Origin: an uncultured Clostridia bacterium
Lineage (GTDB): Bacteria; Bacillota; Clostridia; Christensenellales; DTU072
Direction of reading: 5' to 3'
Length of the DNA stretch: 64,000 nucleotides
Assembly (NCBI GenBank): GCA_944363505.1
Contig: CALVUD010000001.1
Location: 335,633 to 399,632 of the forward strand
In this document: positions 11,520 to 27,026 of the stretch, piece by piece
Layout of the letters: every line of letters starts with the position of its first letter
How positions within the stretch are numbered: position 1 is the first letter of the stretch
Program-made: the position numbers and the translations under genes
Notes under the pieces: generated by a model
The model's input: only the letters and a program-made list of their open reading frames with translations
What the model was told of the DNA's origin: nothing
Databases searched by the model: none

Positions 11520-11621
11520 GGAAACGCCGCAGATTTAAATGTAAATACGATTTTGAACGCTATATGTTGTGGAAATACGAAAAAAATTCGTATATATACC
11601 ACGATATTTTGTGTAATTGGT

Positions 11622-11650
11622 TTGACATTCGCATACGCGGTATATATAAT
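11622..11650 (+). promoter_or_regulatory. consensus sigma-A promoter of guaBA
   Basis: TTGACA (11622-11627), 17 bp, TATAAT (11645-11650): a perfect consensus promoter. Start near 11657, leader about 28 nt with AAGGAG. The leader is too short for a purine or guanine riboswitch. Confidence 0.9.
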
Positions 11651-11669
11651 TGTAAAAAAGTATTTTTAA

Positions 11670-13139
<1,470 letters not shown>

Positions 13140-22139: not shown

Positions 22140-24578
22140 TTAACCGTTCAAACCCTTTTCAGTTTCGGTCTTTTCCGAAACCATGTTTCGCGCGAACTCC
22201 AGAACGTATTTCGCGTTTCGTTGCAATTCGGCTTTGGTCAGACCGTCCGACGAAGCCAAAGAGCTTTCTATACCGTCAAGTTTACCCGAGCGCGATCCGC
22301 GTTTTATCTCTCCCGGCATCAGAACGTTGACGCCCGCGCGGACTCGCCATGCCGAATTCGACAGTTCGCCGAAATCCTTGCTGCGGCTCCTTTCCGCCCA
22401 CCAGTCCGTTATGACCGTGCCGCCATAGCCCCATTCTCCGCGCAAAACGACGGTCAGCAGATCGTAATTATAATAGCACCATGTGCCGTTGATTTTGTTG
22501 TACGCGGTCATCAAAGCTTTCGGCGCGGAGTGTTTCAGCGCCGTTTCGAAAGATTTCAGGTATATCTCTCTCAGCGCGCGCTCCGATATCCTTGTGTCGA
22601 CGGTTTTGCGCATAAACTCCTGATTGTTCGTCGCAAAGTGCTTTACGCAGGCTCCCACTCCCTCCGACTGCACGCCGTTGACCATAGCCGCCGCGGTCAT
22701 GCCGCTGAGATAAGGGTCCTCGGAAAAGTATTCGAAGTTTCTGCCGCCCAGCGGATTGCGGTGTATATTCATCCCGGGAGCAAGCAGCAGATCCGAACCC
22801 GTGAGCTTCATTTCCCTGCCTATGAAAGCGTACAAACGGGTAACCGTATCCGTATTAAAGGTAGCCGCAAGCGCCGTTCCGCAGGGAAGGAGCGAGGTCA
22901 CGCGTTTAAGTCTTATCCCGGAGGGTCCGTCCGTGGTGATTACCGGGGGAACCCCCTTTGCTCTGAGGCTTTCCGAGACTCCGCCGAATGCTCCCGCGTT
23001 ACCCTTCGAGCCGAGCGCGGAATCCATTTTCCCCTCGCCGTGCGCCAGCGTTTTCAGCTCCGCTATACTTAGTCCCGCGATAAAATCCTCCGTCGTAGCT
23101 ATGCCGCAAAGGACGTCGGAAAATTTATCGGTCGGTTTATCCGAAACGATTTCTTCGGGCAGATTACGGAGTATCCTTTCCCTCAGATTCCTTTCCGTCA
23201 CGGGCACACGCTCGTATACTCCGTGCCCCGCGCGGTTGACGAGCCTCTCGAAGGCGTTTCCTTTTTCCACGGGCATTACCGCGCTGCATTGTTTTACGAT
23301 GGTGAATCCGAGTTCGACTTCGCCCGCTTTTTTCGCGGAGCGCGAATCCCGACCGACGTATAACGAATATACGCCCTCCTCCAGGATGAAAGCCGATTTG
23401 TACCCGTTCACGCCCGTTTCGTCGTAAACTGCGAAATCATTGAGGTCTACCTTTATCTCGCGCGTCGCTTTTTCGCCCGCTTTCAGCGGTATTTTGACAA
23501 ATCCGACCAGTTCGCGCGCGGGATTTCCGAGTTTCCCCTCCGGTTTTTCCAGATACGCCTGCACGACCGCCTTACCGAAAACCTCTCCCGTATTTTCGAC
23601 TTGTATCTCCAGCGCGACGGCGGCGTCGACTACGCTTTTTACTTTTGCGCCGTACTTAAATTCTGTATAAGACAACCCGTATCCGAACGGGAAAAGCACC
23701 TTTTCCCGGGCGAAAGTTTCGAAATAACGGTATCCGACGTAAACGTCCTCGCGGTATTCGCTGAAACGCATGCCGCCGAAACAATCGGACGAGGGATAAT
23801 CCGAATATTTTTTTGCGACCGCGTCCGGCAGACTGCCCGACGGATTTTCTCTGCCCGTCAGGACGTCGGCAAGCGCGTTTCCGGATTCCATTCCTCCCTG
23901 CCAGGCATACAGCAGCGCGCCGATCTTATACTTTTCGACCCAGCCGAGATCGATTATGTTTCCGCAATTCATCACGACGACCGTCTTGTCGAAAGCGGCG
24001 CATATTTTTTCAAGCATGTCGGTTTCCGCGTCGGTCAGATAGTAACTGCCCTTTTTCAACACGTTTTCCCTGTCCTCGCCCGCGGCGCGCCCTATCACCG
24101 CCACTGCGACGTCGCTGACCGAAGCCGCTTCTTTAACGACCGCGTCGGACAAAGGCATCTCTGGAAAACTCATCGGCCAGTGCCCCCAGAATCCCTCGTC
24201 GATCTCGTTTCCGGGTGCGGCTCTCCAGTCCTCGTATATTTTTATCAGCCTTTCGTTCAGTTTAACGCCCGCGTTTTTCAATCCTTCGACGACATTGACC
24301 TTATAAGGAGCTATGATGTCGCCGCCCGAGCCGTATCCCACGGTAAAATAGTCGAACGCCGTTCTGCCGAATACGGAAACGGTTTCGCCAGATTTTAACG
24401 GGAGTGTTCCGTCGTTCATCAGCAATACCGCGCTTTCGGCGGCGGCAAGACGCGCCGCGGGCGCGATTTCCGGAACGCACATGCTGCCCGCCGCCGTACC
24501 GTTCAGCTCCTGTTCCAAACCGTTGCCCGAAAATTTCCCGATAAAATATCTGACGATCTTATTGAAAGTTTTACCCAT
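22140..24578 (-). CDS. GH3 beta-glucosidase with inverted domain order
   Basis: An 812-residue family 3 glycosidase whose two catalytic halves are swapped. The alpha/beta sandwich (GH3_C) occupies about 30-270 (SAVLLMNDGTLPL onward). A fibronectin-III-like domain follows (about 295-400). The TIM-barrel nucleophile domain comes last: GRNFEYFSEDPY near 611, KHFATNNQEF near 646 and the nucleophile aspartate in VITDWW near 725. Reversed GH3 enzymes of this kind are known from rumen and gut Clostridia. No signal peptide is visible, so it is probably cytoplasmic. The ATG follows CGGAGAGAGC. A PPOX-like gene follows at once. Confidence 0.92.
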   Translation of the reverse strand: MGKTFNKIVRYFIGKFSGNGLEQELNGTAAGSMCVPEIAPAARLAAAESAVLLMNDGTLPLKSGETVSVFGRTAFDYFTVGYGSGGDIIAPYKVNVVEGLKNAGVKLNERLIKIYEDWRAAPGNEIDEGFWGHWPMSFPEMPLSDAVVKEAASVSDVAVAVIGRAAGEDRENVLKKGSYYLTDAETDMLEKICAAFDKTVVVMNCGNIIDLGWVEKYKIGALLYAWQGGMESGNALADVLTGRENPSGSLPDAVAKKYSDYPSSDCFGGMRFSEYREDVYVGYRYFETFAREKVLFPFGYGLSYTEFKYGAKVKSVVDAAVALEIQVENTGEVFGKAVVQAYLEKPEGKLGNPARELVGFVKIPLKAGEKATREIKVDLNDFAVYDETGVNGYKSAFILEEGVYSLYVGRDSRSAKKAGEVELGFTIVKQCSAVMPVEKGNAFERLVNRAGHGVYERVPVTERNLRERILRNLPEEIVSDKPTDKFSDVLCGIATTEDFIAGLSIAELKTLAHGEGKMDSALGSKGNAGAFGGVSESLRAKGVPPVITTDGPSGIRLKRVTSLLPCGTALAATFNTDTVTRLYAFIGREMKLTGSDLLLAPGMNIHRNPLGGRNFEYFSEDPYLSGMTAAAMVNGVQSEGVGACVKHFATNNQEFMRKTVDTRISERALREIYLKSFETALKHSAPKALMTAYNKINGTWCYYNYDLLTVVLRGEWGYGGTVITDWWAERSRSKDFGELSNSAWRVRAGVNVLMPGEIKRGSRSGKLDGIESSLASSDGLTKAELQRNAKYVLEFARNMVSEKTETEKGLNG

Positions 24579-26200: not shown

Positions 26201-26778
26201 CGCTTTCCGGAGTCCGGCGTTTTTGCCGAAGCGGGCGTCAGACCTTTGAAAACGTATTTCGAAAACGGATAATACGTCGCCGCCGTCAAGCCCGCGTTTA
26301 CGAGAAGCACCACCGACTGCATGGCGAGTCTGCCCGCCAGGAACACGAAAAAGCTTTTGCCGCGCACATAGTACAGCCAAATGCCGAAAGAATTCAACCC
26401 CGCGGTACACACGATGAAAATCAACGCGTATGAGATAAAAACCGAAAGGAGCGGATTGAGTTTCAATTTGAAAACCAGCCCGGGGATCACTCCGAGCATT
26501 ACGGAGCCGAGCGTGATGAACACGTTGAACGGTCCCGCGGGCTGAATGACCCAACCCAGAATATCTCCCACGCCGCCTACTATGCCGCCTGCCACGGGTC
26601 CCAGGAAAATTCCCGCAAACGCGCAAACGATATAGTTAAAAGACAGCGATGCGGACGCGCCGACGCCCATAACGGGCAGAAAAACGCTGAAGCCGTTGGC
26701 GGCGATTGCCAGCGCCGCAAAGAGCGCGGTGTACGCTAAACGCTTCAGCACGATTTGCCTTTTCAGCCTTTCGTTCAT
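26197..26778 (-). CDS. folT: folate ECF transporter substrate-binding subunit
   Basis: A 193-residue integral membrane S-component of an energy-coupling factor transporter, with about six hydrophobic segments. The signature LSFNYIVCAFAGIFLGPVAGGIVGGVGDILGW and the following QPAGPFNVFITLGS are typical of the FolT group. It captures folate and works with a shared EcfAA'T module that is not in this window. Start at 26778 behind AAGGAGGAC. A THF riboswitch directly upstream supports the folate assignment. Its 3' end overlaps the convergent spoVB-like gene by 4 nt. Confidence 0.9.
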   Translation of the reverse strand: MNERLKRQIVLKRLAYTALFAALAIAANGFSVFLPVMGVGASASLSFNYIVCAFAGIFLGPVAGGIVGGVGDILGWVIQPAGPFNVFITLGSVMLGVIPGLVFKLKLNPLLSVFISYALIFIVCTAGLNSFGIWLYYVRGKSFFVFLAGRLAMQSVVLLVNAGLTAATYYPFSKYVFKGLTPASAKTPDSGKR

Positions 26779-26837
26779 GAAAAAAGTCCTCCTTGCAGAG
26801 AGAACTTACGCATAAATAGAGCTTTTTTCTATTTTTC

Positions 26838-26928
26838 GCAACGGACGCGGCACGCCACCGCAGGAGCTTCCTTTCGTCCGCGAACGACATCCCATTTCGC
26901 GGCACTTAACGCGACGTACCTACTCTGC
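26838..26928 (-). promoter_or_regulatory. tetrahydrofolate (THF) riboswitch
   Basis: On the minus strand the conserved core is easily recognised: AGAGTAGG, GCGTTAAGTG, GAAATGGGATGTCGT, ACGAAAGG and GCGGTG, then GCGTCCG. P2 pairs GGTACGTC with GGCGTGCC and P1 pairs GCAG with TTGC. The order is that of known folT-linked THF aptamers. It lies between the folT promoter and the folT ribosome site, so it probably controls translation or early termination of the transporter mRNA. Confidence 0.93.
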
Positions 26929-26934
26929 TTTTTC

Positions 26935-26963
26935 ATTATATAACTTCGCCGGTTTTTTTTCAA
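26935..26963 (-). promoter_or_regulatory. sigma-A promoter of folT
   Basis: Minus strand TTGAAA (26963-26958), 17 bp, TATAAT (26940-26935). The predicted start, about 26928, is the first base of the riboswitch. Confidence 0.85.
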
Positions 26964-26980: not shown

Positions 26981-27021
26981 ATAAAAAAGTATTCCCGTAT
27001 GCACGGATACGCATACGGGAA
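26981..27021 (-). terminator. terminator of the DUF421/DUF4363 operon
   Basis: Minus strand TTCCCGTATGC-GTATCCGT-GCATACGGGAA (11 bp), then TACTTTTTTA, 6 nt past the DUF4363 stop. Confidence 0.85.
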
Positions 27022-27026
27022 CGGCT

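Follow-up and report, generated by a model that had tools for sequence, protein, structure and literature searches.

A THF riboswitch ahead of folT that may exchange its P1 strands with a terminator-like Shine-Dalgarno hairpin

How does a THF-I riboswitch, a class for which Ames et al. 2010 is cited, pass the state of its aptamer on to the gene behind it? Expression platforms vary greatly and are therefore hard to study by covariation. The folT leader of an uncultured Clostridia bacterium raises the question in a compact form: its expression platform, between the aptamer and the folT start, comprises 58 nt. We analysed this leader within the window (the whole stretch of 64,000 nucleotides) and compared it with its relatives. 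The reading that we favour, and consider fairly probable, is a THF OFF switch that governs folT by exchanging P1 strands against a terminator-like hairpin containing the Shine-Dalgarno sequence (SD). Taken together, the 160 leaders compared, which represent 73 genera, suggest two interchangeable designs of strand exchange combined with such an SD hairpin, and direct mutational predictions follow.

In the proposed mechanism, the P1 5' strand would form the first stretch of the transcript and the riboswitch would repress folT when THF is plentiful. With THF present, P1 would stay shut and leave CTCT free, the SD hairpin would form and the SD would be hidden; the U-run behind the hairpin may also stop transcription shortly before the start codon. 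With THF absent, P1 would open and each of its strands would find a new partner. The 3' strand would extend the linker hairpin, while GCAGAG would pair with CTCTGC, which would block the SD hairpin and allow folT to be made. The OFF direction is inferred here, as are the exchange of strands inside the cell and a possible end of transcription.

The folT leader and its aptamer

A covariance-model scan of the window at gathering thresholds gave RF01831 and one tRNA only, with no match to the THF-II model. The RF01831 match scores 73.1 bits against a cut-off of 36 (E 8e-15) and covers the model from position 1 to 99 of 99, which bears out the THF riboswitch that an earlier note had proposed for this leader. 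It is the only match to RF01831 in the genome, and the gene that follows codes for a product matching both TIGR04518 (84.6 bits, cut-off 60) and PF12822; the aptamer thus lies 58 nt upstream of a folate gene, the context looked for in this RNA family. The aptamer is an ordinary THF-I member and presumably binds THF. The features of the leader are collected in Table 1.

Table 1. Features of the folT leader, in positions of the window
Feature	Position	Strand	Remark
Sigma-70-type promoter: TTGAAA (26963-26958), 17 nt, TATAAT (26940-26935)	26935..26963	(-)	11/12 consensus matches
Predicted transcription start (±1)	26928	(-)	seventh base after -10 box
THF-I riboswitch aptamer	26837..26929	(-)	RF01831, 73.1 bits, full-length match
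P1 5' strand GCAGAG	26923..26928	(-)	GCAG forms P1; all six bases able to pair with 26800-26795
P1 3' strand UUGCG	26837..26841	(-)	also able to pair with CGUAA 26810-26806
Linker hairpin AAATAGA/TCTATTT	26814..26834	(-)	downward extension would capture P1 3' strand
CGUAA, candidate alternative partner of P1 3' strand	26806..26810	(-)	from fold with 5' alternative helix enforced
SD-containing hairpin AAGUUCUCU-CUGCAA-GGAGGACUU, 9 bp, terminator-like	26784..26807	(-)	local fold -9.4 kcal/mol
CTCTGC, candidate alternative partner of P1 5' strand	26795..26800	(-)	overlaps anti-SD arm and hairpin loop
Shine-Dalgarno sequence AAGGAGG of folT	26788..26794	(-)	5/7 bases paired in hairpin
U-run behind SD hairpin, before start codon	26780..26785	(-)	read from sequence
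folT, folate-family ECF transporter S component, 193 aa	26197..26778	(-)	TIGR04518, PF12822

Between positions 26600 and 27300 one promoter of the quality listed in Table 1 was found, against 0.4 expected in shuffles. The transcript would start (±1) at the seventh base after TATAAT, and this base is the first of P1 in a Watson-Crick pair. The claim that transcription begins with the first base of P1 therefore holds up as a prediction, pairing being counted from the first Watson-Crick pair; model position 1 itself is a mismatch (A26929 against G26837). The close spacing is shared by relatives. Among the 36 scorable loci of the family (L010 was not scorable), 29 have a -10 box that stops 4-9 nt short of P1, compared with a mean of 1.5 and a maximum of 4 for shuffled upstream sequence. 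Of the 128 loci of other families, 47 keep the spacing of 4-9 nt, and another 57 have 10-25 nt and so carry a longer 5' leader. Upstream on the same strand (26991-27022, minus) a 14-pair terminator-like hairpin with a T-run stands behind a DUF4363 gene, as would be expected if folT is transcribed separately.

A hairpin that contains the Shine-Dalgarno sequence

The SD hairpin pairs AAGUUCUCU with GGAGGACUU around the loop CUGCAA, and CTCT belongs to its 5' arm. Its nine base pairs are followed by six U residues, and a terminator scan lists it as terminator-like. The SD is predicted to be hidden in this way across the order: in local folds of 73 genera, SD pairing reaches 0.88 against 0.66 with shuffled upstream sequence (p 1e-9), and the hairpin folds in 154 of the 160 loci, 107 of these with a tail of at least five U. 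Some loci, L018, L026 and L034 among them, run against the model, their SD being scarcely paired when folded locally over a short span.

The U-run is enriched in the riboswitch genes. Of these 160 genes, 119 have at least five U in a row in the spacer between SD and start, and within the family 34 of 37 do; among other gene starts at the same loci it is 1 of 46. The figure of 119 counts the T of TTG starts for riboswitch genes and falls to 116 of 160 when that T is omitted. Under identical rules the comparison is 90 of 111 riboswitch genes against 1 of 46 neighbouring genes. Where a run of at least four U is present (128 loci), its first base falls close to the foot of the hairpin, at most 3 nt inside it or 1 nt behind it, in 97. 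The hairpin therefore resembles an intrinsic terminator too, and since the U-run is what makes it terminator-like, translation may be controlled together with transcription.

Could transcription attenuation then be the main control, with the SD hairpin and U-run serving as an intrinsic terminator permitted by THF and SD masking as a by-product? The enrichment of U-runs, their onset at the hairpin foot and the result of the terminator scan in the window would all be expected of such a design. Against it, the stem in the window has only 3 G-C among its 9 pairs (-8.9 kcal/mol), and the SD hairpin folds in nearly all loci even though 41 of the 160 are without a U5 run; U-rich spacers may also have some other use. 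We regard primary attenuation as possible but rather doubtful, and return to the exchange of P1 strands against the SD hairpin, in which we take SD masking as the common part and termination as a probable addition. Four loci of one genus (L062, L070, L074 and L102, f6 g73) combine a 5' alternative pairing of 7-8 bp with the lack of a U-run before the start codon, and because of this lack they may use translation alone.

Candidate partners for the two strands of P1

As the earlier note had stated, GCAGAG is exactly complementary to CTCTGC. The latter does not stand 2 nt before AAGGAGG, as was also claimed, and directly abuts it. Pairing of the P1 5' strand with CTCTGC and formation of the SD hairpin are mutually exclusive: the former opens the SD, whereas the hairpin hides it. 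The suggestion that P1, by pairing with either partner, could switch access to the ribosome site is accordingly kept in part. The alternative pairing finds support among relatives, but CTCTGC itself does not mask the ribosome site. The position of CTCT in the arm of the SD hairpin, the partner of the P1 3' strand and the U-run after the hairpin are additions to that proposal.

Taken alone, this sequence is equalled by many shuffles: 18.9% of 200 dinucleotide shuffles of the 45 nt upstream do as well in energy, and 23.3% of 300 shuffles do as well in contiguous score over the last 14 nt ahead of the SD. As stand-alone evidence the 6-bp match was rejected, because 19-23% of shuffles equal it; the claim rests on conservation, and it is through comparison with relatives that the putative 5' alternative pairing is supported. 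Of 40 genomes from the family, 37 have the THF-I aptamer; for the order as a whole the figure is 168 of 297. From among the order matches listed, 165 loci were drawn, of which 160 from 73 genera were kept (L042, L095, L106, L127 and L165 were left out); record L066, probably from the same genome as L020, is uncounted. L095 (f6 g73) has no 60-codon open frame after the expected folT start, owing perhaps to a disrupted gene or to an assembly error. The analyses of enforced folds and of the 14 nt before the SD cover the family only (37 loci).

In this family the 5' partner is sharply divided. In three genera (g1, g5 and g9) each of the 17 loci has a complement of the P1 5' strand scoring at least 5.5 within the last 14 nt ahead of the SD, where 2.1 would be expected, and these loci amount to nine distinct leaders (16 nt plus SD). 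By the same score and span such a complement is found in 0 of the other 20 loci, against 0.92 expected. Within the three genera, two-sided compensatory change in the 5' helix was not found, and variation is limited to G-U variants of the partner (CUUUGC in L007-L010, UUCUGC in L022). The 17 complements include UGC, in or beside the hairpin loop, which SD pairing does not need.

The P1 3' strand has its own candidate partner. When GCAGAG/CTCTGC is enforced in the predicted fold of the window RNA, UUGCG of P1 pairs with CGUAA and extends the linker hairpin downward, through a helix of only 5 pairs, one of them G-U. Of the 17 loci of g1, g5 and g9, folded under the same constraint, 15 show a 3' strand paired with the platform, the exceptions being L020 and L025. 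An anchored test of the 3' element at four positions gave permutation p values of 0.011, 0.006, 0.13 and 0.05 (47 loci, 23 genera). As a separate observation made by eye, L023, L025 and L030 keep the AAATAG/CTATTT flanks around much longer, unrelated-looking inserts, with distances of 125, 136 and 161 nt between start and aptamer compared with 58 nt.

Tests across the order, in which genera or loci were taken as independent, give signals for both strands. For the 5' strand, complements scoring 5.5 or more occur in 31.5 genera against 16.7 expected (z 4.3; 73 genera, 160 loci), those scoring 6 in 16.1 against 9.6 (z 2.3) and those scoring 7 in 4.2 against 1.7 (z 1.95). For the 3' strand, the counts are 13.8 genera against 5.1 at score 6 (z 4.1) and 8.75 against 1.09 at score 7 or more (z 7.5). 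When the platform was held fixed and offered the P1 strands of other species, the own strands proved better (p 0.005 for the 5' strand, 0.003 for the 3' strand), with reversed controls at 0.999 and 0.24, respectively. Swapping platforms between families gave p values of 2.5e-5 (genera) and 3.5e-5 (families) for the 3' strand, the reversed control standing at 0.085 and 0.075. For the 5' strand the same swap gave 0.019 and 0.10 (reversed control 0.066 and 0.15), a weak result that arises because GCAGAG is nearly invariant and CUCUGC is also present in other families. Taking the 5' strand together with a 13-nt leader lowered these values to 0.0004 (genera) and 0.001 (families); the signal is only partly one of pairing, since the reversed control is low as well (0.027 and 0.007). 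Inspection by eye offers examples, which are not a count, of variant P1 strands with their own complements: CAAAG/CUUUG in families f17 and f20, GGCAGAG/CUCUGCC in L074, AGCAGAG/CUCUGCU in L062 and UCAGAG/CUCUGA in L050. Also by eye, where P1 is farther from the promoter (L048, L052, L054, L055 and L061 of f4, L038 of f2, L065 and L150 of f31), the 5' leader seemingly joins the alternative helix, for instance GAUUCG with CGAAUC or ACAUAC with GUAUGU.

The stronger signal of the 3' strand across the order raises the possibility that this strand alone switches, and that GCAGAG/CTCTGC reflects the CUCU required by the anti-SD arm plus chance. The shuffles, which retain the CU-rich make-up, reproduce the match at the rates given above, and the empty 20 family loci point the same way. 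Such a reading leaves aside the UGC of the loop, kept in every locus of g1, g5 and g9 without being needed for SD pairing, as well as the preference for own 5' strands in the query swap with its flat reversed control and the variant strands matched by partners elsewhere; in the window, moreover, the 3' partner is the short helix with a G-U pair described above. We consider a switch by the 3' strand alone unlikely and retain the exchange of both strands.

A broader version of that exchange can be put forward tentatively for the order as a whole. THF-I riboswitches would start at or near the first transcribed base, both P1 strands would switch by being captured in tandem by adjoining platform segments, and the OFF hairpin would both hide the SD and terminate. 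Lineages would differ in where they place the weight: on the 3' strand, on the 5' strand, which some would supplement with a 5' leader helix, or on the two together.

Folding calculations illustrate how the exchange could work; because equilibrium folding takes no account of the ligand, of tertiary contacts or of the order in which the RNA is transcribed, their outcome neither proves nor excludes a switch. Enforcing the 5' alternative in the window RNA raised the unpaired fraction of the SD from 0.28 to 0.78, the alternative being 0.8 kcal/mol less favourable than P1. The corresponding means are 0.13 to 0.72 at -1.9 kcal/mol for the 17 loci of g1, g5 and g9, and 0.08 to 0.31 at +1.1 kcal/mol for the other 20 loci of the family. 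Merely forbidding P1 had smaller effects. Across the 73 genera the mean rise in unpaired SD was 0.027 (Wilcoxon p 4e-7), with five genera above 0.1 and one below -0.1; in the family the values went from 0.13 to 0.44 in the 17 loci and from 0.08 to 0.15 in the remaining 20. In both kinds of fold some loci run counter to the model. In the window RNA, forbidding P1 moved the unpaired SD only from 0.28 to 0.32, and as its folding hardly depends on P1, switching is something that we infer for this RNA. That the THF aptamer no longer switches here, the SD hairpin always forming and folT being made at a low constant rate, would agree with unpaired SD values of 0.28-0.32 whether P1 is forced, free or forbidden, but is very improbable given that the whole arrangement is conserved in the family together with the aptamer, that congeners L007-L010 rise from 0.01 to 0.81-0.82 with P1 forbidden, and that the alternative is so cheap in a calculation blind to tertiary contacts and transcription order.

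Related riboswitches and the folate supply of the cell

According to PMC11477058, the ligand controls the stability of P1 in the THF-I riboswitch. With that class, as described there, the present leader shares the full-length aptamer upstream of a folate transporter gene and P1 as the regulated helix, and differences in the aptamer are none. The THF-II riboswitch (folE motif) is likewise a THF sensor and a proposed OFF switch that hides the ribosome site, as stated in PMC6800512 and PMC9881143. Its aptamer is simpler, consists of two helices and has the ribosome site within P1, and it is located upstream of folE in Gram-negatives, whereas here the aptamer is of the other class and a hairpin apart from it holds the SD. 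Another parallel in design is the purine riboswitch of B. subtilis yxjA (PMC9756952), where a P1 strand is reportedly also exchanged between aptamer and expression platform, in that case against a terminator. The folT leader differs from it in its ligand, in a competing hairpin that also contains the SD, and in that both P1 strands appear to have partners. Our literature search, with most subscription journals outside its scope, showed no study of THF-I expression platforms in the titles that it listed, and we do not claim that the platform is unpublished. In the parts available, the TaRTLEt paper makes no mention of THF and PMC13273304 touches the THF riboswitch only as a citation.

The gene content of the genome gives the switch a physiological setting. 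Searches for DHPS and HPPK gave no match in the genome, which is 96% complete, and were positive in 13 and 11 of 14 control genomes, respectively; an EcfT-family protein is present. The cell therefore probably depends on imported folate and, with neither enzyme matched, folT probably carries its folate supply and the switch would govern it. An OFF switch on folT, if that is the direction, fits feedback.

Two further observations concern other parts of the window. Among 40 distinct start coordinates, two have a spacer with at least five U, folT and a gene on the plus strand starting at 11684, whose spacer between SD and start holds six. The latter presumably codes for IMP dehydrogenase, judging from its first residues, and its surroundings (11620-11690, plus) match no RNA family at gathering thresholds. 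On the minus strand, 22140-24578 codes for a glycoside hydrolase family 3 protein in which the C-terminal domain (51-304) precedes the N-terminal domain (541-793) and an Fn3-like domain separates the two.
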